Position numbers and translations under genes: made by a program
Shown here: positions 1,196 through 63,395 of the stretch, piece after piece
How positions within the stretch are numbered: position 1 is the stretch's first letter
Layout of the letters: each line of letters starts with the position of its first letter
Assembly (NCBI GenBank): GCA_032433765.1
Contig: JAVIAB010000024.1
Location: 9,283,821 to 9,347,820, forward strand
From: Megaustenia siamemsis
Lineage: Eukaryota; Mollusca; Gastropoda; Stylommatophora; Ariophantidae
Reading direction: 5' to 3'
Length of the DNA stretch: 64,000 bases
Notes under the pieces: model-generated
Seen by the model: the letters and a program-made list of their open reading frames with translations, nothing else
Told to the model about the DNA's origin: nothing
Databases searched by the model: none

Positions 1196-1216
1196 GCAAA
1201 GCAGTTGGCAAGCAAT
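1196..1216 (+). CDS. Micro-exon 1 (21 nt)
   Basis: Acceptor tract tcttgactttcag precedes the exon and donor gtaagtc follows. Phase-0 translation is AKQLASN. The intron start shares the 11-base word TTTCATCTAGA with the intron start after micro-exon 3, which hints at an old duplication. No function can be assigned to a peptide this short. Confidence 0.65.
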
Positions 1217-1344
1217 GTAAGTCATTTCATCTAGAAATAATGTATGGATGTGAATTGAAATGATGAAATGTATCAATGTTGTATGTAATTTGATTAAATA
1301 ATTCAAATATGTATTATATCATCTTATATATTGAACTTTATTAA

Positions 1345-1822
1345 CCTCAGAAGGAAGATGTACAACAGAAGTGAGATGCAGAATGGCTCAGGCAAAAGCT
1401 GCTTTCCAGAAAATTAGGAAGATACTATGTAATCCATTTTTGACAATAGAAGTATGAAAAAGAGTTCTTAAATGTTATGTAGAGCCAGTCTTAACATATG
1501 ATGTGAATCATGGACAATAGCACAACTGACAAGAAAATCACTGGAGTAGAAATGTGGTTTTACAGAAGAACGTAGAGAATAACATGGACACTCAATAAGA
1601 GTAATAAAAACGTTCTGAAAGAGGCCAAATGCAAAAAGAGAGCTAATTTCCAATATTATGAAGAAACAATCATCAATTTTTGGCCATGTAATGAGAAGAG
1701 AACAACTGGAATATATTGTAACAAGTGGGAAAATTGAGGGACAAAGAGATAGAGGGAAGCAAAGAGATCGAGAGTTGTGGAGAGACATGATTACCTATGC
1801 CAGCAGGCCCGGTACATGATGA
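1345..1822 (+). mobile_element. LINE-C 3' fragment
   Basis: Degraded reverse transcriptase C-terminus (TSEGRCTTEVRCRMAQAKAAF-type frame, then MWFYRR and a WRDMITYASRPGT end) followed by an ATGATGA tail. Several stops and frameshifts are present. Confidence 0.75.
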
Positions 1823-1867
1823 TTATCATTATATCAACGATATTTACAATTTATTCAATTGTATTTT

Positions 1868-1950
1868 TCATGTGTGCGTGTGTATGTGTATATATATATA
1901 TGTGTGTTTGTGTGTGTGCGTGTGTGTGTGCGTGTGTGAGTGTGTGTGAT
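1868..1950. repeat. GT-rich microsatellite
   Basis: Runs of GT with short TA interruptions. Confidence 0.9.
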
Positions 1951-2039
1951 ATTTGAAATAAACCAACGATCTCTCAGTGAACTGAACGGATCAGTTCAGT
2001 CAAAACTATGATACATTGAAAGTTGGTTACAGTGTCGTT

Positions 2040-2676
2040 GACATATATACATGCACAGATACATACATTACAATCACGCACGTATGCGCACACACGCACA
2101 CAGAACATATACACACCACACATACACATACACCACACACACACACCATACACACATCACACATACACATACACCATATACACACCAAATACATACACAC
2201 CAAACACACAACACGTACAACATACACACAGTACACATACATATACACCACACACACACCAGGCACACTACAAACCAATCAGACCACATACACATCAAAC
2301 ACACACACCATACACATCGAACACACACACCACACACATCAAACACACACACACACCACACACTCTCCACACACATAAAGCACACATCAAACACACACAC
2401 CATACATACATATACACAGCGCGCACACACACCATACACACACTACACATACATACACAACACACACACACACACACTACAAACCACACACATCATGCAC
2501 ACAAACCACACACAGACACCACACCACATACACACCAAATACACACCTCACACACACCCACGCACACCACACACATACACACGCACCATACACATACCAC
2601 ACACACACACTACACACACGCATACACTCACTACATACAGATACACTCACTACACATACATACACGCATACACCAT
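2040..2676. repeat. CA-rich low-complexity tract
   Basis: About 640 bases made of ACACACCA-like words without a fixed period. The open frames in it (Thr/His-rich on plus, Cys/Val-rich on minus) arise from composition and are not genes. Confidence 0.92.
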
Positions 2677-2679
2677 GAG

Positions 2680-3090
2680 AAGAGAGAAAGTTGGAATACA
2701 TTGTTAAAACAGTAAAATGCAGGAAACCGAGATCTCGGAGAACAAAAAGAGAAGATACTAGACAGCTTGGTGTCATGGCACAATAAACAGTCAACAACAT
2801 CTTGTGCCGAACATACTGTGTAAGCCTTAGAGGCAATGCAGCAGGAGGTCGACGTCTGGGAGTCGTGACCCAGGCGGGCCCACCTCCCCTAGAGTGTCAA
2901 GAAGCTAAACGGCCGAAACACTTGCTTGACCCGGGGACTGCTTCTGATGATCAGATTGCCTCCCACTGCGAAGCTCTGTACAAAGAGTTTCCTACTACAA
3001 CAACTGACTTTATACCCTCCACTGTGATAAAAAAAACATGGAAGGACATGATCGCCTAAGCCAACCAGTATGGGCCATGCTAAATGGTAT
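2680..3090 (+). mobile_element. LINE-B 3' fragment with internal insertion
   Basis: Bases 2680-2802 encode the LVSWHNKQSTT part of the LINE-B tail, and 3030-3090 the WKDMIA..NQYGP end. Between them lie about 225 GC-richer bases that I do not recognise (ending near TTTTDFIPSTVI), either an insertion or a divergent element segment. Confidence 0.65.
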
Positions 3091-3239
3091 ACATTGTTAA
3101 TACTTTTATGGGAAATGTTACAAATGTTGTTTTTGAGACCAAAACTAAATTGGCTGGACTTCAGCTGTGTTTTATTTGGAAGTGAAATTATATAATAATG
3201 AGAGAAACATTTGAGAATTGTATCTGTTTTCTATCCCAG

Positions 3240-3269
3240 ATTACGGTTTTGCTAGACAATTTACAAACG
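3240..3269 (+). CDS. Micro-exon 2 (30 nt)
   Basis: A clear polypyrimidine acceptor, tctgttttctatcccag, precedes the exon and the donor is gtaagaa. Phase-0 translation is ITVLLDNLQT; offset 1 meets a TAG. A TA microsatellite and a truncated LINE begin just downstream. Confidence 0.65.
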
Positions 3270-3281
3270 GTAAGAAGTAGA

Positions 3282-3283
<2 letters not shown>

Positions 3284-3316
<33 letters not shown>
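3284..3316. repeat. TA microsatellite
   Basis: TA dinucleotide run directly at the truncated 5' end of the following LINE-A copy. Confidence 0.9.
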
Positions 3317-3320
<4 letters not shown>

Positions 3321-3535
3321 TTCTCAATATTCCTGTATGGTGCAGAAACATAGACATTAGACAAGAAAACAGAACAGAGAATTGACGCCTTTGAAATGTG
3401 GATGTATAGAAGAATAGGTAGAATTGGATGGAAGGAAAAGAAAACAAACGACGAAGTCTTAAAACAACTAAAAATGAAAAGATCACTACTAAACACAATT
3501 CAAACAAGACAAATGCGATTTTTAGGTCATGTTAA

Positions 3536-4069
3536 CCCTTTCCGTACGTTTCGCAGCATAGTGCGCCATGTTCAATTTGATTAGTGTGAACGCCATCAAA
3601 CAATATTCTTTTTATATGTCTTGTATCATCTTGATATTGGTGAAATTTAATACCTTGTTCAATTATCTAAAAATTCATATATAATATGTTATATATTAGA
3701 TAAATATAAATATATAGATTCGTTCTTTCGTTCGCTTTCGTCAGCTTTGACCTCTGACGAAGTCCCACCCACTCAATTTTGTGGGACTGAATTCTGCGTG
3801 TAAAGTCTGTTTTATCCCATTACAGGATGCCCCTCGCCATGCAGGCAGATTTACTCCGACTTCAGAGGTACTAATTTTTAGGGAATTAGTAAAACCCAGG
3901 TGTCCTCGCCAGGGTACGAACCCCGGCTGCTGCCGTGGTAAGCCAACCGCCTATCGATTGCGCTAACCGGACACCCTAATAATATATAGATTGATTCTTA
4001 AAACGAGGAAAAATTTTGTCTCTGAAATCTCTTCCGTTGCGTCGATAAAAAGCTTCCGTACAAAAAGAG
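3536..4069 (+). mobile_element. piggyBac-type MITE, inserted at TTAA in LINE-A
   Basis: Flanked by TTAA at 3532-3535 and 4070-4073. It starts CCCTTTCCGTACGTTTCG; the far end, GTACAAAAAGAGT, is a diverged inverted copy. TTAA duplication and CCCTTT termini are characteristic of piggyBac-superfamily elements. Non-coding; it contains a later SINE insertion (3721-3980). Confidence 0.82.
3721..3980 (-). mobile_element. SINE-4a (tRNA-derived), inside the MITE
   Basis: Exact 12-base target duplication AATATATAGATT at 3709-3720 and 3981-3992. On the minus strand the right end has a tRNA-like head (GGTTAGCGCAATCGATAGG, then B box GGTTCGTACCC). The distal part (CTCTGACGAAGTCCC, and a segment near CAGGCAGATTTACTCC) is shared with the SINE at 58269-58624. 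Confidence 0.85.
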
Positions 4070-4371
4070 TTAAAAGACACAACAGCCTACTAAAAGTAAT
4101 CCTGGAGGGGAAAATACAAGGTAGAAGAGGCAGTCGCAGACCAAGACTAATATGGACGAGTAACATCAAAAGATGGACAAATCAGCCTATGACAACCGGC
4201 ACCATCAAAGCAAGAGACAGAGCAGAATGGTGCTTCATGGTAGCCAACCTTCGTTGCGGAGACGGCACTTGATGATAATGATGATATATATATATATTGC
4301 GTAAAATAGAGAGTTTGTACATGAACAGCATTTTATGACTTCAGCGGTTTATGGTTATGGAAGGTTCCGGT

Positions 4372-4411
4372 ATGGCGCGTCTGCGCCAACCGGTATGGCA
4401 CATGATGATGA
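4372..4411 (+). mobile_element. LINE-B 3' tip
   Basis: GCGCCAACCGGTATGGCAC followed by ATGATGATGATGA, matching the end of other LINE-B copies. Confidence 0.6.
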
Positions 4412-4479
4412 TGACTGCTTGTTGTAAATTTGTTCAGTTCTTTCTGATTCAAAATTGCAATTTATTTAGAGTTAATGTT

Positions 4480-4835
4480 TGTACATTATGGTTATGAAAA
4501 GCCCCAGAATCACCGCAAACGAATTAAAAATCCATAATTGCTCAACCGCCCGTGTCAGTGGAATCATCCGAATTACTATCTCATCTCCCAAACAAAGTAA
4601 GGTAGCTGCAGTCCCCATCATAGCAGTGTCAGCACACGCACAAAAGACATAAGGCGAAACCGCACAGAAAGTGAATATGCGATCTGTTCCCCGTCGTACG
4701 ATATCATCATTCATCGCAAGCAATCGGAATATCGAAACACGATCAAAACGGATGATAAGCACAGTTCACGGTGTGCACAGAACGCTTAACTTAGTAGCTT
4801 CAGCGGTTTTTATGCTGCAGAAGAGTCATTTCCGG
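4480..4835 (+). repeat. Dispersed repeat R4, copy a
   Basis: One of five copies or fragments (others at 26540, 27000, 44133 and 48838). Marked by ttatggttatg at one end and attgctcaaccgcccgtg inside. Class unknown: no tRNA head, no coding capacity and no clear terminal inverted repeats. Confidence 0.7.
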
Positions 4836-5227
4836 ATCATTAATACAGAACCTAAGCAATCACATATTTAAGAAGTTTCCAGCTTGTCTGCTTGCGACTT
4901 GGATCGTTAGAGCATTGATTCCTGGTCACTGTGATGATCAGATTAAAGACATCACCAGAGCTGCCACCACCAATAATGAATTCAGAAGATATGTACATTT
5001 CGTTACACTCCAAGAGACACGCCCATCAATGGATCTCCAAAAGGGGAAGATAAAGCATTCTTATAACATGGGCAAATTTGTAGAAAAATTGACGTTATAT
5101 GGAACAGTGGCATAACCCATCTTTGATAACACATGAACAGTGAGATCTGGCACCAAGCAACGTTATAACTCGATATATGTTCTGCTGTAGAATATGGGAT
5201 GTAAACATTAAACCTTTACCAGTAGAG
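4836..5227. other. Unassigned intronic sequence
   Basis: No convincing gene, repeat or splice-site pair; one short open frame (4915-5115) without recognisable features. Confidence 0.5.
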
Positions 5228-5240
5228 TACCTGTATAAAT

Positions 5241-8045: not shown

Positions 8046-8228
8046 TTTAAGGATAATGTTCTTCACAGAATAACAGAAATGGTTCCCGATATGATACTAA
8101 CAAACCTAATACAACTAAACAGTCTGACATTGTGATGATTTTGCTGTATAACGGTTAATAATAATAATGAAACATTCATGTGGTTGGGGTTGTTCGTTGT
8201 TTTAAACGAAATCTATTTTACTTTATAG

Positions 8229-8258
8229 ATCATCATTAATTCTACCGGCGAACATCCG
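8229..8258 (+). CDS. Micro-exon 3 (30 nt)
   Basis: Acceptor atctattttactttatag, donor gtaagta. Phase-0 translation is IIINSTGEHP and contains one NST sequon (N-glycosylation motif). Offset 2 has a TAA. Confidence 0.65.
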
Positions 8259-8454
8259 GTAAGTAGTTTCATCTAGAGCTGGGAGTGCGAGTGTAATATG
8301 GGATCAACATTTATTTAAGAGACTGTTTAATTCGTTTTTTACTTTACCTCTACCCAATCCCTTTGTTTATTAGCTAAAGTGCTCGATCAGATGTCACGTG
8401 TGTCTTAGGTTATGAATGTGCAACCTTTAACCCGTGGGACAATTTAGAAATGGT

Positions 8455-10367: not shown

Positions 10368-10664
10368 CTCTTTCAGTACGTTTCGATTCTCCATGCGCCA
10401 TGCTGAATTCGGTCATGTACGTTTAGCCGCACAGAACGTCACTCACAATCTGATTAGTGTAAACCTTCATCACACCATATTCATTTTACATGCCCTGTAT
10501 CATCTTGTTATTGGTGAAATATAATTACATGTTTAATTATCTAAAAGTTCGTATATAATATGTTCAGTGTTAGATGAACATGTATATTAATGTTTAAAAC
10601 ACGAACCATTTTGTCTCTGAAATCTCTAGCGCTATATTGATAAAAACTGTCCGTATTGAAAGAG
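10368..10664 (+). mobile_element. piggyBac-type MITE, uninterrupted copy (297 bp)
   Basis: Left flank TTAA (10364-10367), right flank TTGA (10665-10668, presumably mutated TTAA). Termini CTCTTTCAGTACG and its inverted partner near GTATTGAAAGAG. Same family as 3536-4069 and 51995-52423. Confidence 0.85.
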
Positions 10665-11017
10665 TTGACGACCTGTAGATTCTCTTCAATTGCTGAATGT
10701 TTGGTCGTTCTACATGTTAGGTTCAGTTATACCCAGGACAGTAGATCAATGCAAGTTACCGTTGATTTCATTTTAAAATCATGTTTATTTAAAGTTGACG
10801 GTCTGTCCTAGTAGCAGAAAGTTTGTGACCTCTATTTTCGTTCGTCCACACACGATCAAGTCACTAGAAGCACACACTAGACAGAGCACCAACTTCCGAT
10901 ATCTTGATGATCCATTTGAACCAATTCAAACCAGGTCTAAAAATTATGATACACGGCGTCAATTATTTGTTTATTTTATTAAATGGATATTTTATTTAAT
11001 TTGTTTTTGTTTCTTAG

Positions 11018-11053
11018 GATATAAATGGCGTTCTGTCAAGACAAATGAATTAC
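11018..11053 (+). CDS. Micro-exon 4 (36 nt)
   Basis: Long T-rich acceptor tttgtttttgtttcttag, donor gtaagtt. Phase-0 translation is DINGVLSRQMNY, the longest exon of the series. Offset 1 meets TAA at its second codon. Confidence 0.68.
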
Positions 11054-11635
11054 GTAAGTTATGATCTTCAGCGAAACAGAAGAAATAGCGAGAAGTAAAG
11101 ACTGAAGAACTACTAAAATAATGTAGATTGATTGTCCACTGGAATGTATTCTAGAGTCGACATGACTGGTGTGGTCTTCAAATCTCGATGTGTAGTCACG
11201 TGATCACTCACAAACATAAATACTTTGACTTAACTAAAGTAATCAATAACTGAAATCATAATTGTGTTTACTTATTTCACTGGATTGTCAGTTATGGTAC
11301 TTGTGAGAATGTGCATCAGCAAGTTCAAATTCTGTACAATTTAGTTCCAGATTACACTTTTTTATTAGTTTAGATCAATGTCAAAAACTAAAAAAATATC
11401 TTTACGACTCTACTATAATTGCTGGTGTATGTCGTGGGTGGGGGGGGGGGAGAGAAACAACTATAAAATCAGAGGGTTAAAGGCCGCTTGGTCAAGTAGT
11501 CTCATTTTTATTTCACCCCCCCCCCCCCCCGATAGAAAAGATCCTTTAACTCTACCGCGAGCTTCGAACACCGTACGCCGATTTTCAGCTAGCGGGACAG
11601 TGGCTTTAGACGAACGGCCGCGCCCACTTGTCAAT
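11054..11635. other. Intronic sequence after micro-exon 4
   Basis: Mostly unremarkable apart from a G run near 11440 and a C run near 11517-11530. Opposing open frames at 11378-11661 look incidental. Confidence 0.5.
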
Positions 11636-12275: not shown

Positions 12276-13685
12276 CAGGGTGTTTCTAAAGTCGCAGTGC
12301 AGTGAATTTCTACTCTCGGAAGAAAAACGTCACCAGAAATGCGGTTAACTAATGCGTCACACAAATTGTAAAATAAGTGGTATTATTCAAATATACTTGA
12401 CTGCTATCGGCGAGCTTATAATGGGTAATGTTGGTATTAACACAATAAAGTTGTGTCTAAAGCATATGTTGAAAATGTCCACCACGGGCCTCAAGACATG
12501 TCGTGATTCGTCTTTCCATATTTGCGAAAACCTTCAGAATAATGTCTGGTGATATTTGTTTAATCTTGACTACTATTTCAGTCTTTAGGTCATTAATTGT
12601 CTGCGGATTATTTTCATAAACTTTCCCCTTCAATGCCCCCCACAGATAATAATCTGGAGGTGTTAGATCTGGTGAACGAGCAGGCCAGATTCCACGTGAA
12701 ATAATGCGATCTGCAAATATGCTTTCTAAATAATTGAGTGTTGTTGTGGCTGTGTGTGCTGTTGCCCCATCCTGCTGAAACCAGGATTCCATAATTTCCC
12801 GTTCTGTAAGGTGTGCTATGAACGGTTCCAGAATTAAAGTACGGTAACGTTCTGCATTTATTGTTTCATTAAAAAATATAGGTCCTATTATCCGCATACG
12901 ACTTATAGCGCACCACACTCCGACTTTTTGATCGTAAAGCGGCACTTGATGAAATTCATGGGGGTTTGCACTGCTCCACAGCCGATTGTTCTGACTGTTC
13001 ACATAACCGGATAATTGAAACCAGGCCTCATCAGTGAAAAAAGTGACGTCAAGGATGGCAGCGCCATGTTCATAAATACAATTCTGAAACCACATGCAGT
13101 AGTTTAAACGGGATTCATAATCTCTTTCTTGGAGTTGAGACACTTCAGTTAATTTGTATGGACGATAGTGTAGTTCACTTCTTAAAACCTTGTGAACAGA
13201 ACTCTTAGATATTTGCACCTGTTGAGACAAGTGGTTTAAAGATGCATTTGGACTCATTGTAATTCTGTCTTGGAGTTCCATAATTTGGTCTTGTGAAACT
13301 GAAGGTCTTCCAGATCGGTATGCATCTACCACACTACCGGTTTCACGAAACTTTTTGATCAATTTTGTAACAGAATTTCGGTGAGGGACTTGTGAGTCTG
13401 GAAATTTCCTCACGAATTGTCTAATGACCTCATCCGTATATTTACCGCCATTACGAAAGACATGCTCAACCAGAAATACCATGTTTTCAATCGTCAACAC
13501 CATTTCCTTCAAGCAATGAGACAGTGAAAGTAGCGTAGTGCCCGTCCTTTACGTAAATAAAACCTTAAAGGAAGCAGCGGTTTGTTCATAAATGTGGTTT
13601 ACAAAATTGTGGTACGTAGATCATGATTACGTCATTTACTGAATATTAGAAATATTCACTGCACTGCAACTTTAAAAACACCCTA
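12276..13685 (-). mobile_element. Apparently complete mariner-superfamily DNA transposon
   Basis: A 1.41-kb element bounded by 32-base terminal inverted repeats (12276-12307 and 13654-13685) matching at about 29 of 32 positions. Each begins YAGGGTGTTT and ends GCAGTGCAGTGAAT in the inward direction. It sits in a 52-bp minisatellite: fusing the flanks and removing one TA restores the array word cttatataacac, so the target duplication is TA, as expected for Tc1/mariner. One full-length transposase frame fills the interior on the minus strand. Confidence 0.93.
12457..13512 (-). CDS. Mariner/Tc1-superfamily transposase, full length, 351 aa
   Basis: Predicted DDE transposase that would cut out and reinsert the surrounding element. 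The N-terminal 120 residues form two helix-turn-helix-like modules, with a GRPS hinge at 69-72 as in paired-type Tc1/mariner DNA-binding domains. The catalytic domain shows FFTDEAWF (D161), WFQQDGATAH (D248) and RSPDLTPPDYYLWG (D287). The last two acidic residues are 38 apart, unlike the 34 of classical mariner (DD34D) or Tc1 (DD34E). The sequence style resembles insect transposases annotated with DUF4817 and the DD41D/Rosa group, so it probably belongs near them; that placement is from memory of motifs. No stop or frameshift interrupts it, and it starts with ATG about 170 bases inside the right TIR. It could be active or only recently silenced. Confidence 0.9.
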   Translation of the reverse strand: MKEMVLTIENMVFLVEHVFRNGGKYTDEVIRQFVRKFPDSQVPHRNSVTKLIKKFRETGSVVDAYRSGRPSVSQDQIMELQDRITMSPNASLNHLSQQVQISKSSVHKVLRSELHYRPYKLTEVSQLQERDYESRLNYCMWFQNCIYEHGAAILDVTFFTDEAWFQLSGYVNSQNNRLWSSANPHEFHQVPLYDQKVGVWCAISRMRIIGPIFFNETINAERYRTLILEPFIAHLTEREIMESWFQQDGATAHTATTTLNYLESIFADRIISRGIWPARSPDLTPPDYYLWGALKGKVYENNPQTINDLKTEIVVKIKQISPDIILKVFANMERRITTCLEARGGHFQHML

Positions 13686-13984: not shown

Positions 13985-14770
13985 ACTACCCGTCTACTCT
14001 TCATCGACCACCCATTATTATCCTTTAAGCGTGATCGCAGCCTCTGTGACATGCTTGTCGGGAGCCGCCTTCCTGCCTCCACGTTCTAACCCTAGTCTAT
14101 GTCAAACTTGCAACCACGTCCACCGGACGGACACAGTTCTCTTCCCTAATGGTTCTATTGAGATCAGAGAGGGGATTCACTTGTACATCGCGTTAAATTT
14201 GTATATACCATCATATGTAAGCAATGTAAGTTGACTTACATAGGCGAATCCGGTCGCCGTTTACGAACTGATGTCGGGAACATCTGTATGATATCACTCT
14301 GAATGCTAGCACCCCTGTGGCATCCCACTTCAGCTATCAATACCATCAGGTTTAGACGGATATCCCAGTTACTGGCCTGGTGTCATGTTTGTCTAACCCT
14401 GCTCTGGTTTTAGTCCCCTTCAGGCAATTTTTCGTGTCTGTACTACATATCTTGATTATCCTCTATCACGTCTCACTTATCCATGCGGGTTCTGAGGTAT
14501 GTCTCGCTGGTTCGATCGCTCTTCAATACTGCTCAATATTTATTATCAGTACACGTCCCACATAAAGCTACACCTATCACGAGAGTATCCGGGGATTGTC
14601 TGCTGAGTGCTTACTTTCGCACACTCAGAGATCCCGAGTCTTTACTTGTGTCACGCTTGACTACATCACTACGCGTCTGACATCCGGTCTACGTATATGA
14701 CTGACTGCCCAGATGGCATGTGATAACCATCTCTCAATGTATGTGGACGGAGTCCACTTAACAAATTAGT

Positions 14771-15765: not shown

Positions 15766-15786
15766 ATTATCGACAAAATACAACAG
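15766..15786 (+). CDS. Micro-exon 5 (21 nt)
   Basis: Acceptor acatatattctactttag, donor gtaagta. Phase-0 translation is IIDKIQQ. It lies in a stretch of about 500 bases free of recognisable repeats. Confidence 0.65.
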
Positions 15787-18498: not shown

Positions 18499-18528
18499 TT
18501 TTTCATTACTTTGGATTTGTCATTAGCA
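18499..18528 (+). CDS. Micro-exon 6 (30 nt), acceptor less certain
   Basis: Donor gtaagta is strong. The acceptor tattcaaacttctcag has only a short pyrimidine tract, and a second AG lies two bases before the donor. With the first AG the exon is 30 nt and reads FFITLDLSLA in phase 0, a hydrophobic peptide. Offset 1 has a TAG. Confidence 0.5.
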
Positions 18529-21337: not shown

Positions 21338-21432
21338 TCTATCTGCCTGCCTGTCTGCCTACCTGCCTGCCTGCCGTCATGCCCGCCTGCCTGCCTGCCT
21401 CACTGTCTGTCTGTCTGTCTATATATCTATCT
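21338..21432. repeat. CTGC/CTGT tetranucleotide microsatellite
   Basis: Imperfect CTGY and CTAT runs directly abutting repeat T1. Confidence 0.9.
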
Positions 21433-21690
21433 ATTGTCCTTTCGAGCCAAAGACGACATATAGGGCAGAACCACAATCTCAAAAACAGAAACCGTGCCAA
21501 AATGGCACATATTGCAGAGATCACCACTTCTAAAATATATGGCTCTGTTTCCAAAACACATAAACATAATACTTTTACAATGACAGCCTGTCAAGCCATC
21601 AATCAACCTCCTTAGTCGCCTCTTACGACATGCCTGGAAGGTCACGGTGTTTCTATTCTTTACTTCCCTCATAATGAAGCCCGGTGACAC
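21433..21690 (-). mobile_element. Dispersed repeat T, copy 1
   Basis: Minus strand carries TTCATTATGAGGGAAGTAAA and GTCGTAAGAGGCGACTAAGG and ends TTGGCTCGAAAGGACAATAG followed by TAGATA units. Probably a short retroelement with a tetranucleotide tail; other copies at 24135 and 42489. Confidence 0.7.
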
Positions 21691-21793
21691 ACGGGATAAT
21701 TATTAAATAGACATATGTTATTGAGTGGTCTATGATGAAACACAATGATGTGCGAACTATATTTTATATTGTCTAATGTCTCTTCTGCTTTAG

Positions 21794-21811
21794 ATAGGTA
21801 CTTCATCACAA
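21794..21811 (+). CDS. Micro-exon 7 (18 nt), duplicated exon, copy 1
   Basis: Acceptor aatgtctcttctgctttag, donor gtaagta. Phase-0 translation is IGTSSQ. It forms the right end of a roughly 0.4-kb segment found again at 24135-24516. The two exon copies differ at one synonymous third position (GGT against GGC). Confidence 0.65.
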
Positions 21812-21939
21812 GTAAGTAATAACATCGAGCAATGATAAGACTGTTCAAAATTGATTTAGTTGTCGTCGTCTCATAAATCTGAGACTTTTACTAGAAATGT
21901 GCGTGAGCTTTTCATTAATTTACATACATGGTCAATCAA

Positions 21940-24105: not shown

Positions 24106-24136
<31 letters not shown>
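23742..24136. repeat. CATC/CACC tetranucleotide array
   Basis: About 390 bases of CCATCCAT and CCACCCAC changing to TCTATCTA at the junction with repeat T2. Frames such as IHPSIHP are artefacts. Confidence 0.95.
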
Positions 24137-24516
24137 GAGCCGAAGACGACACATAGGACAGAACCACAATCTCAAAAACAGAAACCTTGCAAAAATGGCA
24201 CATATTGCAGAGATCACCACTTCTAAAATATATGGCTCTGTTTCCAAAACACATAAACATAATACTTTTTAAAATGACAGCTTGTCAAACCATCGATCAA
24301 CCTTCTTAGTCGCCTCTTACGACAAGCCTGGAAGGTCACGGTGTTACTATTCTCTACTTCCCTCATAATGAAGCCCCGGTGACACACGGGATAATTATTA
24401 AATAGACATATGTTATTGAGTGGTCTATGATGAAACACAATGATGTGCGAACTATATTTTATATTGTCTAATGTCTCTCCTGCTTTAGATAGGCACTTCA
24501 TCACAAGTAAGTAATA
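24135..24516 (+). repeat. Segmental duplication, copy 2 (repeat T2 plus micro-exon 8)
   Basis: Repeat T copy 2 occupies about 24135-24385 on the minus strand. The remainder is intron plus exon. Identity with copy 1 stops exactly at 24516. Confidence 0.88.
24489..24506 (+). CDS. Micro-exon 8 (18 nt), duplicated exon, copy 2
   Basis: Acceptor aatgtctctcctgctttag, donor gtaagta. Phase-0 translation is IGTSSQ, identical to micro-exon 7. Sequence identity with the first copy ends ten bases into the intron (after gtaagtaata), where a LINE remnant begins. Confidence 0.63.
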
Positions 24517-26290
24517 ATGGGTTCAGTAATTGTGCGTTCTTGCGTAGTTTTTTGTTGTCTTATTGATAGTTGTTGTCATGTTTAACAGGTCTTCAAAATA
24601 TTCTTTCCATCTCTGTTGCATTTGTTGGTTATTTGACATTATGGCTGTCCGTCTTTATCATTTATGAGCTCAGTAGGATCATGGTTTTCTTTTCTCGCTC
24701 TTGTTGCTTTTACTGCTTTGTAGAAATCTCACGAGCTGTTTTGAAGTCCCTGCTTTTTTGTCCGAATTCTGTTCAATTCTTTTGCTTAGCTTCTTTGATC
24801 AAAATTTTAACTCTTTTTCGAACTAAGGCATATTTTTCTTGGTTCTTATTCTCCCTCCAATTTGTAAACAGTTTCTTCTTTTCTTTCATTACTTCTCTGA
24901 TTAGGGAGCCGCGATAGCTCAGTTGTTAGTGAACTGGACTACAAAGGACACGGGATAGGGTTCGAATTCAACCGACGGCTTCCGGGTTCACCCAGCCTTA
25001 AATGGGTACCGGATTTTTATCTGGGAATGTAAATCAGCACGGGCGTAATACCGACCATATTACCCAAAAAAAACATGTGCTGAAGGTCTGTAAAATATAG
25101 GGTCACTAACACCATATTTCCCTACACGCCACATGGCGTGACGGGGGTACTTTACTTTTTTACTTACTTCTCTGATTGTTTCGTTCCACCACGGGGTGCT
25201 CTTTTTTCCTTCTCTTGTTCTTAGCTTCGTTCCACAAACTGTTTTAGAGATGTTGGTTACTGTTTCCTTAAATTGTTTCCGCTCTAATTCGCTTACTTCG
25301 TTAGGGAGTTTCTTGAGTTCCTCTGTTAGTTTTTCTTCTAGGGTTTTCCTTGACTCTTGATATTTTAATTGTTTTACTGTTATTGTCTGTTTTTTTTTTT
25401 TTTTTTTGCTTCCTTTGTTTTCGTATCTTCTCTTTCTTTTTGGCTGTCTGGGTGTGATCATAACTATTTAGTGGTGCGTGTCATCTGTGATATTAGGGAT
25501 TGCTCTACTGTCGGTTACTCTTTTCTTGTTCTGTTTTCTTGTTAGTATAAAATCTATATGGCTCCTGCATGTTGTGTCATTCCATTTGTACCAGGTGTAT
25601 ACTTGCGACTCTCTGTGTTTGAAGAATGTGTTGGTGATAAATAAATCATTTTGATTACATAGATCCAGCAGTCTGCTTCCATTTTCTTTTATTTCAGCTG
25701 CCTTATCGCCAAAGGGTCCTAAGAAATCTCTGCTCTACTGTTACGTATCCCTAGCCTTCCATTAAAAGCTCCCATCACTTACATGTCATCGCTTTAGTCA
25801 ATCTTGTTAATACTTTCATTGAGTGGGTCATATAATTCTTCCCTGTCTTTTTCCTTGTTGTTGCAAGGTGCATAGATTTGTATGTAAGCTTGTTTTCGAT
25901 CGTCTTCTAGTAGTTTAATTGTGATAATTCTTTCTGAATGGTATTTTATTTATAGAATGTTCTTTGTGTGCTCAGGGTCAATGATAAAGCTCACTCCGTG
26001 TGCTGTCGACTTCTGAGAATATTATCGTGTAGTTCACGCGTGTTTTCTTTATCTCTTGTCCATTTATTCTGCTGTCCGCTAATCCTAGTATTTTAATTTT
26101 CCTTTTTGTCATTTCTTCTATAAGTTTAACATCTTTGTTTTTTTCTTAATCCACATATATTGATGGTTGCTACGTTATACGTATCTCCATCTTCTGTCAT
26201 AAAACATTTATCCCTTACCGACCTGCTGAGTCAGTCGTAAGTTAAGGGCTTAACCTAAAGACACACGTTTGGGGTTTAGCCCGGCTGTTT
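24517..26290 (-). mobile_element. LINE-G 5' half: endonuclease and linker region
   Basis: On the minus strand an ATG near 26205 begins MTEDGDTYNVATINICGL, an apurinic-endonuclease-type start. Later fragments read YTWYKWND..CRSHIDFILTRKQ, then the linker STPWWNETIREV (25060-25461 is the open part) and the pre-reverse-transcriptase motif RWKEYFEDLLN near 24600. Frameshifts and stops are present, and the reverse transcriptase itself is missing. Split by SINE-1h. Confidence 0.82.
24903..25165 (+). mobile_element. SINE-1h, full length, inside LINE-G
   Basis: Exact 12-base target duplication ACTTCTCTGATT at 24891-24902 and 25166-25177. Complete head and body. Confidence 0.92.
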
Positions 26291-26472: not shown

Positions 26473-26493
26473 AGAGACATATATGCAAACGAT
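26473..26493 (+). CDS. Micro-exon 9 (21 nt)
   Basis: Acceptor catctttcctttcag, donor gtaagta. Phase-0 translation is RDIYAND. A dispersed repeat of about 430 bases starts some 50 bases downstream. Confidence 0.62.
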
Positions 26494-29400: not shown

Positions 29401-32160
29401 ACATGTATTGAACCAAATAAAAAGACCGCAGAAATTGACCCATACAAGAAGACCACATAAATTGAGCCACACAACAAGATCACAGAAATTGACATACAAC
29501 AAGATCACAGAAATTGACATACAACAAGATCACAGAAATTGACATACAACAAGATCACAGAGGTTGACATACAACAAAACCGCAGAAATTGAGCCATACA
29601 ACATGACCGCAGAAATTGACCCATACAAGAAGATCACAGAAATTGACATACAACAAGATCACAGAGATTGAGCCATACAACAAGACCGCAGAGATTGAGC
29701 CATACAACAAAACCGCAGAAATTGAGCCACACAACAAGATCACAGAAATTGACATACAACAAGATCACAGAAATTGACATACAACAAGACCGCAGAGATT
29801 GACATACAACAAGATCACAGAGATTGACATACAACAAGATCACAGAGATTGACATACAACAAGATCACAGAGATTGACATACAACAAGATCACAGAGATT
29901 GACATACAACAAGATCACAGAGATTGAGCCATACAACAAGACCGCAGAGATTGACATACAACAAGATCACAGAGATTGAGCCATACAACAAGACCGCAGA
30001 GATTGAGCCATACAACATGACCGCAGAAATTGACCCATACATGAAGATCACAGAAATTGACATACAACAAGATCACAGAGATTGACATACAACAAGATCA
30101 CAGAGATTGACATACAACAAGATCACAGAGATTGACATACAACAAGATCACAGTGATTGACATACAACAAGATCACAGAGATTGACATACAACAAGATCA
30201 CAGAGATTGACATACAACAAGACCACAGAGATTGACATACAACAAGACCGCAGAGATTGGGTCATACAACAAGACAGCAGAGATTGAGCCATTCAACAAG
30301 ACAGCAGAGATTGAGCCAACCAACAAAACCACAGAGATTGGGTCATACAACAAGACAGCAGAGATTGAGCCATTCAACAAGGCAGCAGAGATTGGGCCAT
30401 TCAACAAGACAGCAGAGATTGAGCCAACCAACAAAACCACAGTTATTGGGTCATACAACAAGACAGCAGAGATTGAGCCATTCAACAAGACAGCAGAGAT
30501 TGAGCCATTCAACAAGACAGTAGAGATTGAGTCATACAACAAGATCACAGAGATTGAGCCATACAACAAGACCACAGAGATTGAGTCATTCAACAAGACC
30601 ACTGAGATTGAGTCATACAACAAGACCACTGAGATTGAGCCATTCAACAAGACCACTGAGATTGAGTCATACAACAAGACCACTGAGATTGAGTCATTCA
30701 ACAAGACCACTGAGATTTAGCCATACAACAAGATCGCTGAGATTGAGTTATACAACAAGACCACTGAGATTGAGCCATTCAACAAGACCACAGAGATTGA
30801 GCCATACAACAAGATCGCTGAGATTGAGTTATACAACAAGACCACTGAGATTGAGCCATTCAACAAGACCACTGAGATTGAGCCATACAACAAGATCGCT
30901 GAGATTGAGCCATACAACAAGATCGCTGAGATTGAGCCATACAACAAGATCGCTGAGATTGAGCCATACAACAAGATCGCTGAGATTGAGTCATTCAACA
31001 AGACCACTGAGATTGAGCCATACAACATGATCGCTGAGATTGAGTCATTCAACAAGACCACAGAGATTGAGCCATTCAACAAGACCACAGAGATTGAGTC
31101 ATACAACAAGACCACTGAGATTGAGTCATTCAACAAGACCACTGAGATTGAGCCATACAACAAGATCGCTGAGATTGAGTTATACAACAAGATCGCTGAG
31201 ATTGAGCCATACAACAATATCGCTGAGATTGAGCCATACAACAAGATCGCTGAGATTGAGTCATTCAACAAGACCACTGAGATTGAGCCATACAACAAGA
31301 TCGCTGAGATTGAGTCATTCAACAAGACCACTGAGATTGAGCCATACAACAAGATCGCTGAGATTGAGTCATTCAACAAGACCACTGAGATTGAGCCATA
31401 CAACAAGATCACTGAGATTGAGTCATTCAACAAGACAGCAGAGATTGAGCCATTCAACAAGACAGCAGAGATTGAGCCATACAACAAGATCGCTGAGATT
31501 GAGCCATTCAACAAGACCACTGAGATTGAGCCATACAACAAGATCGCTGAGATTGAGCCATACAACAAGACAGCAGAGATTGAGCCATACAACAAGACCA
31601 CAGAGATTGAGCCATACAACAAGACCACAGAGATTGAGCCATACAACAAGACCGCATAGATTGAGCCATACAACAAGGCCGCTGAGATTGAGCCATACAA
31701 CAAGGCCGCTGAGATTGAGCCATACAACAAGACCGCAGAGATTGAGCCATTCAACAAGACAGCAGAGATTGAGCCATTCAACAAGACAGCAGAGATTGAG
31801 CCATTCAACAAGACAGCAGAGATTGAGTCATACAACAAGACCACAGAGATTGAGTCATACAACAAGACCACAGAGATTGAGTCATACAACAAGACCACAG
31901 AGATTGAGTCATACAACAAGACCACAGAGATTGAGCCATTCAACAAGACCACAGAGATTGAGCCATTCAACAAGACAGCAGAGATTGAGTCATACAACAA
32001 GACCACAGAGATTGAGTCATACAACAAGACCACAGAGATTGAGTCATACAACAAGACCACAGAGATTGAGTCATACAACAAGACCACAGAGATTGAGCCA
32101 TTCAACAAGACCACAGAGATTGAGCCATACAACAAGACCACTGAGATTGAGCTATACAAG
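29400..32160. repeat. 25/27-bp minisatellite, about 105 copies (2.76 kb)
   Basis: Left third uses mainly a 25-bp unit (attgacatacaacaagatca). From about 30250 a 27-bp unit (attgagccatacaacaagac) dominates. The 27-bp part is open over long distances on both strands (minus 30717-32159, plus 31040-32245) only because the period is divisible by three. Confidence 0.95.
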
Positions 32161-33114: not shown

Positions 33115-33144
33115 TTTCTAATTGTTTTATCTGGAATCCAAGTG
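33115..33144 (+). CDS. Micro-exon 10 (30 nt)
   Basis: Acceptor tttgtatacctcttag, donor gtaagta. Phase-0 translation is FLIVLSGIQV, strongly hydrophobic. Offset 1 meets a TAA. Confidence 0.62.
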
Positions 33145-35086: not shown

Positions 35087-35107
35087 CTTGCAAACTTTGC
35101 TTACACA
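35087..35107 (+). CDS. Micro-exon 12 (21 nt)
   Basis: Acceptor aactatatcttttatttcag, donor gtacgtc. Phase-0 translation is LANFAYT. A LINE-A fragment starts about 40 bases downstream. Confidence 0.55.
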
Positions 35108-35149
35108 GTACGTCAGATGATCTAAAAGTATAGCGAGATGATACCAATA

Positions 35150-38075: not shown

Positions 38076-38084
38076 ATTTCTCTG
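38076..38084 (+). CDS. Possible micro-exon 13 (9 nt)
   Basis: Acceptor atttacctctttttcag, donor gtatgta. The nine bases read ISL in phase 0. Both splice sites are good, but so short an exon carries little information of its own. Confidence 0.4.
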
Positions 38085-40319: not shown

Positions 40320-40337
40320 CAAAAGGAGCCAATCAAG
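40320..40337 (+). CDS. Micro-exon 14 (18 nt)
   Basis: Acceptor ctcttaaatgatatttcag, donor gtacgta. Phase-0 translation is QKEPIK. It lies in a repeat-poor stretch at 39950-40550. Confidence 0.55.
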
Positions 40338-42791: not shown

Positions 42792-42812
42792 ATTGCTGGT
42801 TTTGCAGGAAAT
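42792..42812 (+). CDS. Micro-exon 16 (21 nt)
   Basis: Acceptor ggaatcttctattgcag, donor gtaagta. Phase-0 translation is IAGFAGN. A dispersed repeat with a TAGA-type tail ends about 40 bases upstream. Confidence 0.63.
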
Positions 42813-49431: not shown

Positions 49432-49461
49432 ATTGCCAAGATCCTCAGAGAAGAAAAGAAG
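49432..49461 (+). CDS. Micro-exon 17 (30 nt)
   Basis: Acceptor gttttcatgattcag, donor gtaagag. Phase-0 translation is IAKILREEKK, a basic and charged helix-like stretch. Confidence 0.6.
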
Positions 49462-51526: not shown

Positions 51527-51547
51527 ATTGAAGAAATGGCAGATTAT
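51527..51547 (+). CDS. Micro-exon 18 (21 nt)
   Basis: Acceptor ttgtgtgttctatttcag, donor gtaagta. Phase-0 translation is IEEMADY. Offset 2 meets TGA at its first codon. Confidence 0.67.
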
Positions 51548-55422: not shown

Positions 55423-55452
55423 GTTAAAATTGTACGAGAAGGAGTATTGCAT
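55423..55452 (+). CDS. Micro-exon 19 (30 nt)
   Basis: Acceptor actgtatgtcttgtcag, donor gtaagta. Phase-0 translation is VKIVREGVLH. Offset 2 has a TAA at once. Confidence 0.65.
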
Positions 55453-58855: not shown

Positions 58856-58857
58856 AT

Positions 58858-59555: not shown

Positions 59556-59629
59556 GGTTTCTTTGGATAATCACAGCAGGTTACAACAGAAGAAGTTAAA
59601 CTAAAAAATTCAAAGGTTTCAAGCCTCGC

Positions 59630-59905
59630 TAGATGTATGGGGAATGGGGATGTTAATGACCATATATGTCATTACGACCATGGCACAGTTTTAGATAAGG
59701 TGGTCGGTATCACGCCAAGCCAACTTGACTTTCAAGAGAAATCTATGGTACCCAAATATAGCGGCCGGGTGATCCGTAGGCGTTGTCGGTCATATATAAA
59801 ATAAAAAAATAAATAAAAAAAAAAAATTTCGTTATTTCAAGGATTCAAATCTGGACTTTTCTAATCAGGAACCGTGCGCACTAACCACTGAGCCAGACAG
59901 ACTCC
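59630..59905 (-). mobile_element. SINE-1-related body with another tRNA head
   Basis: The body shows TTAATGACCATA, AAGGTGGTCGGTATCACGCC and GGTACCC positions of SINE-1. The minus-strand head is GGCTCAGTGGTTAGTGCGC with B box GATTTGAATCC, unlike the SINE-1 head. Confidence 0.65.
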
Positions 59906-59936
59906 ACACAATTTAGATGATCGACGTATATTTACG

Positions 59937-59988
59937 ATTAACTCTTTCAGTACGAAAGCTTTTCATCAATGTAACGGAAGAGATTGTC
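59937..59988 (-). mobile_element. MITE end fragment
   Basis: TTAACTCTTTCAGTACG at the left edge; truncated on the right by LINE-A. Confidence 0.65.
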
Positions 59989-60380
59989 ATTAGACAAGAA
60001 AACAGAACAGAGAATTGAAGCCTTTGAAATGTGGATATATAGAAGAATATGTAGAATTGGATGGAAGGAAATGACAACAAACGAGGAAGTCTTAAAACAA
60101 CTAAAAATGAAAAGAGAACTACTAAACACAATTCAAAGAAGACAAATGCGATTTTTGGGCCATTGTTAAAAGACACAGCAGCCTACTAAAAGTAATTCTG
60201 GAGGGGAAAGTACAAGGTAAAAGAGGCAGAGGTAGACCAAGATTAACAATGACGAGTAACATCACAAGATGAACAGATTAGCCTATGACAACCTGCACCA
60301 TCAATGCAAGAGACAGAGCAAAATGGCGCTCCATGGTAGCCAACCATCGTTGCGGAGACGGCACTCGATGATGATGAACG
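59989..60380 (+). mobile_element. LINE-A 3' fragment
   Basis: LDKKTEQRIEAFEMWIYRRI through MRFLGH and VANHRCGDGTR, then GATGATGAA. Frameshift near 60165. Confidence 0.85.
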
Positions 60381-60454
60381 GAAGTGAATTCAGAGACAAC
60401 ATTGTTTCATGATTTTAAGAATTAAACTACATATTTATAGTTATCTAACATATT

Positions 60455-61092
60455 ATCAGCATCATGTGCCATACTGGTTGTCGTAGGTGATCATGTCCCT
60501 CCACAATCTTATATCTACAGTGCATCGTATCTGTTCTGTTGTTGACTGTTTTCCATGCCATGACACCAAGCTATCCAGTATTTTCTCTCTTTGTCGTCCG
60601 CGATCTCTCTGTCCTTTTATTTTGCCAGTTGTAACCAAGTATTCCAACTTTCCTCTTCTCATGATGTGCCCGAAAAATGTTGATTGCTTCTTTATGATGT
60701 TTTTTTAAGAGCTCCCTTTTTGTGTTGGCCTCTTTGAGAACTTCCTCATTGGTCTTTTTAGCTGTCCAGGGAACTTTCAATATTATTCTGAGAAATCCCA
60801 TCTCTGTGGCCTCTAATCGTCTTTTCATTTGTGTGTCTACTGTCCTTGATTCGCTTCCATAGGTCAGAATTGGTTCTATATAGTACCGATGAACTCTCTT
60901 TCTCATTTTTATTGACATAGATTTCTTGTATAAGATATTTTTCATTTTCTGAGATGCTATTTTGGCCTGAGCTATTCTGCTTTTTATTTCTGTGGTGCAT
61001 CTCCCATCTGATGTAATTATTGTGCCCAAGTATTTGAAACGTTGTACTTGTTTCAGATTTGTTTCGTTTATTTTTAAGCTGCATGATGGTGA
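60455..61092 (-). mobile_element. LINE-B copy, best preserved C-terminus
   Basis: Minus frame 60571-61221 reads LKQVQRFKYLGTIITSDGRC, RVHRYYIEPILTYGSESRTV, EATEMGFLRIILKVPWTAKK and on to KRKVGILGYNWQNKR; a frameshift then leads into 60462-60662 (LVSWHGKQSTTEQIRCTVDI). Catalytic YADD region absent. Confidence 0.87.
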
Positions 61093-61109
61093 TGATTGTT
61101 TATATATAT

Positions 61110-61312
61110 ATAACATATTATATATGTTTAGATAATTGAACAAGGTATTAGATTTCACCAATATCAAGATGATACAAAACATGCAAAAAAATATGGTTTG
61201 ATGACGCTTCACACTAATCAAATTGAAAGTGACGCACTATGCGTCGAAACGCGCACGGTCGAAATCGGCATGGCACACAGTGCGTCTAAACGTACAGAAG
61301 CAGTTCAAATTG
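61110..61312 (-). mobile_element. MITE fragment
   Basis: Reverse-complement interior of the TTAA MITE family (GTTTGATGACGCTTCACACT and CGTCTAAACGTAC words); both ends lost. Confidence 0.75.
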
Positions 61313-61348
61313 GAACAATACATAATTAAGTCCAGAAACAAAATTTGT

Positions 61349-61672
61349 TGGGGGCCTCGGGTAGCCTAGTTGGGAAACCCACCCGACTGGACTACCGACA
61401 TTCGGACAATCCGTGTTCGATTCTCGCTGGGAGCAGTGTGAATTGTACCCGTTGTTGGAAAAAAAAATACCCCCACGGTCGACCCAGCCGTTGGCAAAAA
61501 TGGATACCATGGTATTACCCTGGGAAGGTGAAGAATGTCGCCTCACATCGTGGGTTTCGATGCTTGAAGCGGCACTATCCAGGAATCACCGAACATTCCT
61601 GCATAGGCGTCAGAGTACTTATTGGTGAAAACTCGCGTGCTATGACGCCGGTTCAAGTCTCGTACTTTACCA
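61349..61672 (+). mobile_element. SINE-2c, full length
   Basis: tRNA-like head with A box TAGCCTAGTTGG and B box TGTTCGATTCT, then the SINE-2 body to CAAGTCTCGTACTTTACC. Confidence 0.82.
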
Positions 61673-61866
61673 AGCGTTCGGCTTCTCGTGGCAAGCTGCA
61701 GTGCCATGGAGTACGGGTTCGATCCTGCTTCGGACCATATATTGTTCTATGTTTTTTTCTGTTGTTGTTTATTTGTCATTTTTTCCGAGTGCTAACACAT
61801 ACCCTTTCCTTTCCTTCTATTATTCCCTATTATCGCCTCGGAAGTTTCCCTATTTAATAATATTTA
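61673..61866 (+). mobile_element. SINE-3, copy 1
   Basis: Starts near AAGCGTTCGGCTTCTCGTGG, B box GGTTCGATCCT, ends TATTATTTGTCTCC. Directly abuts SINE-2c on its left and LINE-A on its right. Confidence 0.72.
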
Positions 61867-61869
61867 TTG

Positions 61870-62990
61870 ATTATTATTTGTCTCCAGTATATAACAATTG
61901 GAAGCTACTATTCGTGCAGTTTCGTCCAATAAATGTTTGTCTGCAACACAAGTATTCATCCCTACTGGGAGATACTTGCATTAATAGGAAAGTACAGAAA
62001 TACATGCAATCTATACTGGGAGCAAACAGCAATAATAAAATATAACAAAGAGTTCTCTACACCCATTGATATAAAAAGAGGAGTAAGACAAGGATGCATC
62101 CTATCACCAAGCTTGTTCAATCTATACACTGAGCAAATCTTTAAAAACATCATAGAGATGCCAGGCCTACAAATTAATGGAAAGATAATCATAACCTAAG
62201 ATATGCTGACGATACTGTACTACTAGCAGAAAATCCTAAAGACCTACAACAATTACTTAATGAAATAAACACGACAAGCAAAAAATATGGACTAGATATG
62301 AATATCAAAAAGACTAAAACTATGATCATAAACAAAGAAAATACTCAAAACCCACAAGTGGATATCAAAATTGAAGGAATAGACCTTGAGACAGTTCAGA
62401 ACTATAACTACCTTGGACATACTATAACCAGTGATGGAAAATGTACAACTGAAATAAACAAAAGAATAGGAATGGCAAAAAGTAATTTTAATGTCATGAA
62501 GGACATACTAACATCAAAACAAATAACACCAGAGCTAAAACTAAGAATAGCAAAATGTTACATCTTCTCAATATTCCTATATGGTGCTGAAACATGGACA
62601 TTAGATAAGAAAACAGAACAGAGAATTGAAGCCTTTGAAATGTGGATATATAGAAGAATAGGTAGAATTGGATGGAAGGAAAGAAAACAAATGACAAAGT
62701 CTTAAAACAACTAAAAATGAAAAGAGAACTTCTGAACACAATTAGAACAAGACAAATGCGATTCTTAGGCCATGTTAAAAGACACAACAGCCTACTGAAA
62801 GTGATCCTGGAGGGGAAAATACAAGGTAAAAGAGGCAGAGGCAGACCAAGATTAACATGGACGAATAACATCAAAAGATGGACAAACCAACCGATGACAA
62901 CCTGCACCATCAAAGCAAGAGATAGAGCAAAATGGCGCTCCATGGTAGCCAACCTTCGTTGCGGAGACGGCACTCAATGATGAATGATGA
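61870..62990 (+). mobile_element. LINE-A copy, best preserved reverse transcriptase
   Basis: In order: YWEQTAIIKY, TPIDIKRGVRQGCILSPSLF, a frameshift near 62199, YADDTVLLAENPKDLQQLLN (catalytic YADD box, about 62205), then the open part 62298-62705 with YNYLGHTITSDGKCTTEINK and YGAETWTLDKKTEQRIEAFE, a second frameshift near 62690, and 62672-62980 ending VANLRCGDGTQ. Two or more frameshifts and the absent endonuclease make it inactive. Confidence 0.9.
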
Positions 62991-63103
62991 CAGAAATACA
63001 ATTTTTTCCCGAGCTGTGATCGTAACCCTATGCTATAGTCATGGGAACGCCTTCGTGTAAGACACTGCTCACAATAGCTAATTTTTTAATTAGCTGAGTG
63101 GCT

Positions 63104-63325
63104 GTGTACCAAGCTTTCGGCTTCTCGTGGCAATGCGCAGTACCATGGAGTACGGGTTTGATGCTGCTACGGACCATATATCGTTCTTTGTTTTTTTCTG
63201 TTGTTGTTTATTTGTCATTTTTTTCCGAGTGCTAACACATACCCTTTCCTTCTATTATTCCCTATTATCGCCTCGGAAGTTTCCCTATTTAAAAATATTT
63301 ATTGATAATTATTTGTCTCCTCGTA
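63104..63325 (+). mobile_element. SINE-3, copy 2
   Basis: GTACCAAGCTTTCGGCTTCT to TAATTATTTGTCTCC, in direct orientation with copy 1, 1.4 kb apart. Micro-exon 20 follows 50 bases later. Confidence 0.72.
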
Positions 63326-63374
63326 CATTACCTTTATGTACATAATTTGTAAACTAAATCTCATATTTGTACAG

Positions 63375-63395
63375 GTATTTCAACATGCACTAAGT
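63375..63395 (+). CDS. Micro-exon 20 (21 nt)
   Basis: Acceptor aaatctcatatttgtacag, donor gtaagta. Phase-0 translation is VFQHALS. Offset 1 has a TAA. It is the last exon before the window edge, and its strong donor shows that the gene goes on. Confidence 0.65.

Follow-up and report, generated by a model that had tools for sequence, protein, structure and literature searches.

To our knowledge, genes built from micro-exons have been described in flukes and in aphids with their relatives, all of them host-dwelling. In schistosomes, about 80% of the coding region of the micro-exon genes (MEGs) is carried by symmetric exons of 6-36 bp, the products are secreted or membrane-anchored, and fast divergence hampers homology search; MEG-26 was described to have an amphipathic helix (PMC5825161). 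The aphid bicycle genes form a multigene family on separate chromosomes; their tiny exons share a single phase, internal ones beginning in phase 2, and their structure is kept while the protein diverges. The aphid megacycle gene is composed of more than 100 micro-exons (118 within some 100 kb in M. sacchari), and its protein consists of internal repeats in which the introns fall at the same or similar positions (PMC9168663). In the SSSGP genes of the Hessian fly, the non-coding parts were reported to be better conserved than the coding parts (PMC2955719). The present analysis concerns a stretch of 64,000 nucleotides from a snail, Megaustenia siamemsis (assembly GCA_032433765.1, contig JAVIAB010000024.1, positions 9,283,821 to 9,347,820), hereafter the window, which we consider quite probably to lie within a longer run of phase-0 micro-exons arranged in super-repeats, from which splicing is predicted to yield at least one very long, likely secreted protein of amphipathic helices.

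The window was scanned with tandem arrays masked, the best acceptor being taken for each donor and interval length being set at 15-45 nt. At a splice score of at least 16, 14 of 14 short plus-strand intervals were a multiple of three in length (3n) and open in phase 0, as opposed to 0 of 3 on the minus strand. At scores of 13, 14, 15, and 16, the intervals that were 3n and open, 3n and closed, or not 3n numbered 21:0:5, 17:0:4, 15:0:2, and 14:0:0 on the plus strand and 4:6:11, 3:3:6, 1:0:4, and 0:0:3 on the minus strand, while the 3n-open intervals of 40 Markov-1 simulations had means of 3.3, 2.3, 1.5, and 0.75 and maxima of 7, 6, 4, and 3. The firm set consists of 16 plus-strand intervals of 18-36 nt, each 3n, open in phase 0, and flanked by a pyrimidine-rich acceptor and a strong donor; three weaker candidates begin at 13374, 38076, and 40320 on the same strand. 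The hexamer GTAAGT is found 17 times on the plus strand and 4 times on the minus strand (p 0.007), and 13 of the 17 mark the end of an exon, the remaining four lying at 14226, 26237, 41310, and 47874.

The short in-frame intervals are thus a real and confirmed observation, as the initial annotation of the window had held in describing 19 plus-strand intervals of 3n length open in phase 0, with GTAAGT on that strand nearly always closing one of them. Both of its end intervals (1196-1216 and 63375-63395) were recovered, and 16 firm and 3 weaker intervals are named here. Its assertion that the other two phases both hit stops is wrong exon by exon, 9 of the 16 firm exons being open in phase 1 and 13 in phase 2. 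The run of symmetric phase-0 micro-exons that it proposed is strongly supported, because the homology, helix periodicity, glycosylation sequons, intronic motif, and decoy-controlled genome-wide pattern described below all lie outside the selection of exons; the single gene of just over 62 kb did not survive, the window being a slice of super-repeats that continue on both sides for at least 314 kb.

The flanks were read for 200 kb downstream and 50 kb upstream, then for a last 10 kb downstream, and all coordinates are given on the window scale. The run extends over at least 314 kb, from about -42 kb to +272 kb or beyond, and contains 75 exons of 18-48 nt, mostly kilobases apart (most of 18-36 nt, some of 42 and one of 48). 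In the window plus the downstream flank (264 kb, unmasked, score of at least 17), 37 of 51 plus-strand intervals were 3n, 36 of which were open in phase 0, against 4 of 12 being 3n on the minus strand; unmasked arrays inflate the minus strand at lower scores (at score 15, 70 of 115 were 3n and only 13 of the 70 phase-0 open). In the upstream 50 kb at score 17, 10 of 16 intervals on the plus strand and 3 of 3 on the minus strand were 3n. The working list of 73 exons was hand-picked from scans at a score of at least 12.5 (at least 12 upstream), being selected as 3n and phase-0 open.

Most exons of this list measure 21, 30, 33, 36, or 42 nt, and the order of these size classes is repeated from starting points near -42, 72.7, and 227 kb; the resulting super-repeats, of 115 and 155 kb, are collinear. 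When the peptides of each repeat were joined, repeat 1 (29 exons) matched repeat 2 (36 exons) with 56 bits (E 1e-13), and repeat 2 matched repeat 3 (10 exons) with an E of 4.5e-10. Control chains drawn from phase 1, phase 2, and the antisense of the same exons attained at most 18.1 bits, and 200 shuffles each of exon order and of residues for repeat 1 against repeat 2 attained at most 28.1 and 24.6 bits, respectively. The repeat-1 chain includes an exon at -13750 that came from a relaxed look into a gap, with the duplicated exon IGTSSQ counted once; the repeat-2 chain includes 179099, 188586, and 215559, the omission of which gives a similar score; and exon 260051 was taken here as 48 nt (donor GTTAGT), having been cut at 42 nt in earlier tests, including those on helices and sequons. 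Exon length was kept in 23 of 27 positional pairs, paired by hand from order and chain alignment, a figure never reached in 20,000 shuffles, and 46 of 213 residues (about 22%) are identical in the pairs of equal length. The last 10 kb yielded four plus-strand candidates of 36, 9, 18, and 21 nt, of which the 36-nt ASGDPEGQVLQV followed by the 21-nt IENLSQE mirrors the order of repeat 2 (ASLASTEGRRTE, IENLNSA), the expected order not having been fixed in advance; a 33-nt exon expected ahead of ASGDPEGQVLQV was not found in this 10 kb. The window itself offers an example of exon duplication: 21410-21822 and 24107-24517 are direct copies, 94% identical, each bearing IGTSSQ with one synonymous base between the two exons.

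Helicity and glycosylation played no part in exon selection, and were assessed over 70 exons (664 residues; 24489, 215559, and 188586 dropped). The hydrophobic moment at the heptad angle of the joined peptides lay at z 8.7 over within-exon shuffles (3.6 for the 15 window exons alone and 8.4 for the 55 outside the window), in comparison to -1.4 in phase 1, -1.4 in phase 2, 2.5 for the antisense, -0.5 for random open intervals, and 1.3 for 12 minus-strand decoys. N-glycosylation sequons numbered 20 versus 7.5 expected, which 0 of 1000 shuffles reached (2 versus 0.8 expected in the 15 window exons alone), an excess that suggests passage through the secretory path. The 21-nt class (n=24) follows a pattern I-x-x-F-A-x-x, with I in 13, F in 11, and A in 13 exons, the 30-nt class (n=29) is chiefly hydrophobic at positions 1, 2, 4, 5, 8, and 9, and cysteine makes up 0.3% of the 664 residues.

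The introns also carry a signal at the donors, as revealed by motif tests on 69 exons (24489, 215559, 188586, and 260051 left out). Downstream of the 53 exons in the 21- and 30-nt classes, the anchored information at positions +7 to +36 amounts to 5.49 bits, where 28 shifted controls average 1.21 bits and never exceed 1.65; the consensus is about GTAAGTAAtATGATcTAgAAaTga. At upstream positions -60 to -26 of the same classes it amounts to 4.04 bits, the controls not exceeding 1.63. The motif is class-specific, the 16 remaining exons possessing a different downstream consensus, about GTAAGTTATGTcAAccAgcA. An unanchored motif search gave a likelihood score of 90, compared with 40-45 in four shifted controls and 53-68 in four shuffles. 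Within the window, a donor with its downstream element is seen on the plus strand as gtaagtcatttcatctagaa (1217..1236), gtaagtagtttcatctagagctg (8259..8281), and gtacgtcagatgatctaaaagtat (35108..35131). This donor-side motif likely has a role in micro-exon recognition, the plain alternative being shared descent of the exons.

The window belongs to a dispersed superfamily with relatives elsewhere in the genome. A genome-wide search with the exact pattern of the 21-nt class returned 52 matches versus 1 for the reversed pattern (3 of the 52 being the exons from which the pattern was derived), and a decoy pattern one base shorter returned 0, with 3 for its control. Apart from eight in one tandem array on contig C51, the other 44 comprise 27 on C100, 10 on C24 (the contig of the window), 3 on C155, and one each on C1, C50, C51, and C101; the 40 on C24, C100, and C155 encode 31 distinct peptides with 0 stops. 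Similar matches on C100 are spaced by 310, 335, and 348 kb, and a second series by 187, 175, and 264 kb, each series on one strand, a spacing that points to tandem units of such size. A 91-base query round exon 72683 found, beyond itself, one 76% match on C100 (E 2.7e-6), where the intronic tag of the matching exon ISKEMRERNE is repeated almost letter for letter while the peptide is different; within 10 kb of sequence at that locus, the plus strand has five candidates, measuring 36, 21, 30, 27, and 30 nt.

On C24 itself, a pattern match on the strand of the window exons is located upstream, at a distance of 210 kb from the window. Matching exon sites at 10180538 and 10205371 on the plus strand and at 10538846 and 10565627 on the minus strand of this contig occur in reversed order and strand, and an inverted duplication of micro-exon units is likely to be present on the downstream side, roughly 0.9 to 1.3 Mb from the window. 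The eight matches on C51 (122486934-122487596) stand in an apparent 42-base tandem array, which represents either a micro-exon-like unit trapped with its splice sites in a minisatellite or chance. Within the run, the micro-exons ASRLFFKMWW and GRQNGIRPCNNLTK adjoin tandem arrays at -30450 to -29441 and -23831 to -22888, the units of which seem to echo the donor side, as if a splice site had seeded the minisatellite. The peptide VYEHHLPESLE, met at both 260430 and -49364 with near-identical acceptor sides, was dropped as a mobile repeat.

Set beside the described systems, the snail run resembles the schistosome MEGs in its short exons (chosen here as symmetric), rapid divergence, and predicted amphipathic helix, and it differs in belonging to a gastropod, in extending over hundreds of kilobases with exons of 18-48 nt and serial repeats, in its donor-side intronic motif (a feature not looked for in MEGs), and in having neither a recognised signal-peptide exon nor kinship at E 10, the MEGs not having been compared directly. 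The parallel with MEGs drawn in the initial annotation is supported in the run of phase-0 micro-exons; the source is likely a land gastropod and not a flatworm, and no sequence kinship was found, none having been compared directly. With megacycle, the run shares its many micro-exons, and the snail super-repeats, which may belong to one protein, match in exon length in 23 of 27 pairs; it differs in its 75 exons over 314 kb, in that neither end was found, and in its phylum, the sequences not having been compared. It is also, in the manner of the bicycle genes, multigene and dispersed over several contigs, with tiny exons of one phase and a structure kept despite protein divergence, whereas its homology and helix signal lie in phase 0 rather than in the phase 2 of the bicycle family, and the CYC motif of bicycle proteins is judged absent from the snail peptides by their cysteine content, no scan for the motif itself having been made. 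The likeness to SSSGP genes in better-kept non-coding parts is weak here, being drawn from few pairs, and the opening of the SSSGP abstract makes no mention of micro-exons (PMC2955719). By analogy, the snail run may work like megacycle and like the MEGs, whose protein variants arise by alternative splicing, with membership in neither being claimed. No gastropod micro-exon gene was found among the titles and abstract openings of open-licence papers.

Several results weigh against the reading of the window, made from genomic DNA, as part of a long, functional micro-exon run. The joined peptides of repeats 1 and 3 gave no significant match (E 0.08), and just 7 of 17 low-copy DNA matches between repeats 1 and 2 link paired exons collinearly (1 links unpaired exons and 9 lie elsewhere). 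Exons of 33 and 36 nt in repeat 1, and of 33 and 42 nt (D) in repeat 3, were looked for and not found. When exon order was permuted, the moment fell very little (z 1.5), some 67 of 1000 permutations reaching the observed value, so helix continuity across junctions is not demonstrated. Over 29 positional pairs (three-way sets included, hence non-independent), 65 of 271 residues are identical, with pS 0.585 and pN 0.502, and the corrected dN/dS of about 0.73, from saturated data, is weak evidence of constraint. Pairs significant at 0.05 against controls amounted to 9 of 32 for the upstream flank, 5 of 32 for the downstream flank, and 7 of 32 for the exon; because so few individual pairs are significant, homology rests on order and joined chains and not on single pairs. 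A comparison of upstream introns (70-75% identical) with exons (47-63%) in four chosen, gapped pairs was not used, as random sequences average 60% and range up to 73%. At the C100 locus, the same 10 kb hold seven minus-strand candidates versus the five on the plus strand, for which reason the candidate count there proves nothing by itself.

Nor were the ends of a gene recognised, as further points on that side. A signal-peptide exon and a 3' terminal exon, which the initial annotation had suggested seeking in the flanks, were not recognised there: passing signal-peptide first-exon candidates were not convincing (5 of 51 on the plus strand and 4 of 20 on the minus strand), and last-exon candidates showed no excess (89 on the plus strand versus 96 on the minus strand). 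The joined chain gave nothing in Pfam (best E 0.16) and no match at E 10 in the PDB (best E 8 with a 3-row profile), the chain of the Pfam and first PDB queries still containing VYEHHLPESLE, and a search of about 5.8 billion proteins with the chain 1196-202622, leaving out 21794, 179099, and 188586, returned no match at E 10 or better. The silence of protein databases may be explained in part by gene callers missing micro-exons. A guess from the peptide pattern, the GAIN domain of adhesion receptors, was abandoned after Pfam and PDB gave nothing for it.

Among the other explanations, the one that fares best replaces a single giant transcription unit by several tandem paralogous genes of about 115-155 kb, each of which would possess a separate promoter, signal-peptide exon, and last exon; we assign it not quite an even chance. 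The collinearity of the super-repeats favours it, as does the recurrence of C100 matches at the distances given above on a single strand per series; it is opposed by the failure to recognise either a start or an end exon, and by repeat 3, in which only about 4 kb separate the 48-nt exon from the next exon found and leave scant intergenic room. Banks of mutually exclusive exons as in Dscam, belonging to a conventional receptor or adhesion gene with its constant exons outside the stretch read, are an unlikely source of the pattern: many similar exons do stand in series, and no conventional exon was recognised by eye among the 45 longest of 130 open reading frames (ORFs) in 324 kb, yet neighbouring size classes often alternate and their order is collinear between repeats, which fits serial modules better. 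That the run is a relic, a formerly coding micro-exon array now in decay, is less probable still. Its residues diverge almost freely, as the pS and pN values above indicate, and start and end exons and some expected exons are missing from what was recognised; against decay stand the 36 of 37 3n intervals open in phase 0 at a score of at least 17, the 0 stops among the 40 pattern matches, and the 0 3n-closed intervals on the plus strand of the masked window at all four thresholds, although that scan would overlook decayed copies whose splice sites are gone. Chance and selection, whereby a reader in search of 3n lengths would find splice-like intervals in any 64 kb of AT-rich sequence, are very improbable as a general explanation, for although such sites are common (the simulations average 0.75 to 3.3 intervals per window) and the exon set was picked by frame and length, 14 of 14 stands against a null maximum of 3, and features that were not selected (repeat homology, helix periodicity, sequons, intronic motif, and 52 versus 1 genome-wide) concur; individual weak exons may nonetheless be due to chance.

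All exons of the window lie on the plus strand. Those of 21 nt are AKQLASN (1196..1216; acceptor TTTCAG, donor GTAAGT), which pairs with 140129; IIDKIQQ (15766..15786), where 15633-15829 matches 161348-161535 at 64%; RDIYAND (26473..26493); LANFAYT (35087..35107; donor GTACGT), which pairs with IIHFAHK at 170040; IAGFAGN (42792..42812), which is among the genome-wide pattern matches; IEEMADY (51527..51547); and VFQHALS (63375..63395), which pairs with IFDKAER at 197725. The 30-nt class is represented by ITVLLDNLQT (3240..3269; donor GTAAGA), paired with 144008; IIINSTGEHP (8229..8258), with 8088-8281 matching 153644-153835 at 64%; FFITLDLSLA (18499..18528), paired with 164448; FLIVLSGIQV (33115..33144), paired with 168878; IAKILREEKK (49432..49461; donor GTAAGA), paired with INRVLEETKE at 185031; and VKIVREGVLH (55423..55452), paired with 192652 at unequal lengths. 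One exon of 36 nt, DINGVLSRQMNY (11018..11053), lies in a segment (10664-11061) that matches 155827-156219 at 62%, and the 18-nt IGTSSQ is present as copy 1 (21794..21811) and copy 2 (24489..24506), the latter duplicated along with its upstream intron. The weaker candidates, which are outside the tested exon set, are NFGEGL (18 nt, 13374..13391), ISL (9 nt, 38076..38084; donor GTATGT), and QKEPIK (18 nt, 40320..40337).

Many of the 45 longest ORFs resemble pieces of mobile elements by eye, and when seven window ORFs were tested against Pfam, two matched, one to a helix-turn-helix domain and one to a reverse transcriptase. A 363-residue ORF at 12460-13548 on the minus strand carries the helix-turn-helix domain DUF4817 (E 8.6e-8) and looks by eye like a mariner-like transposase. 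A 27-bp array at 29407-32159 (about 100 copies, with IEPYNKTTE-like repeats that contain sequons) was tried as a long coding repeat and rejected, its frame being broken several times. Rfam and ARAGORN gave nothing in the window. Elsewhere, a COX1-like stretch at C151:10323780-10324580, open under the invertebrate mitochondrial code and situated within a large contig, is likely a nuclear copy of mitochondrial DNA. The COX1-like sequence shares 98% identity, across 91% of the query, with Megaustenia imperator, the next named match being Deroceras at 89%; a land semi-slug, M. siamensis, is accordingly the likely source, and octopus, an early guess, was rejected on COX1.

How a run of phase-0 micro-exons in super-repeats might function can be proposed in outline. 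Since each piece is symmetric in phase 0, its skipping, duplication, or exchange would likely be safe for the frame, and splicing could add, skip, or swap 6-16 residues at a time with the frame preserved. The intronic tag likely guides the spliceosome to exons too small for ordinary exon definition, and the duplication of exons, modules, and whole units, together with slack constraint on most residues, would generate protein diversity. The product is predicted to be a long, glycosylated, helical secreted protein with hypervariable amphipathic-helix cassettes, most likely a gland or epithelial secretion that faces something variable, for instance a mucus, defence, or reproductive-tract protein. 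We lean, with some reserve, towards the broader proposal that a land snail lineage evolved, separately from flukes and aphids, a superfamily of giant genes, each hundreds of kilobases long and consisting nearly entirely of hypervariable phase-0 cassettes of 6-16 helical residues, which a class-specific intronic splice code would mark so that splicing provides a combinatorial secreted repertoire.

If this is true, a free-living gastropod would possess a micro-exon architecture at a larger scale, which would make such architecture a general route to diversity and not a mark of parasitism. Ordinary gene callers are prone to skip micro-exons, and similar families may for that reason sit unread in other genomes. 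The donor-side motif, in turn, renders directly testable how the spliceosome recognises a 21-nt exon that lies kilobases from its neighbours.

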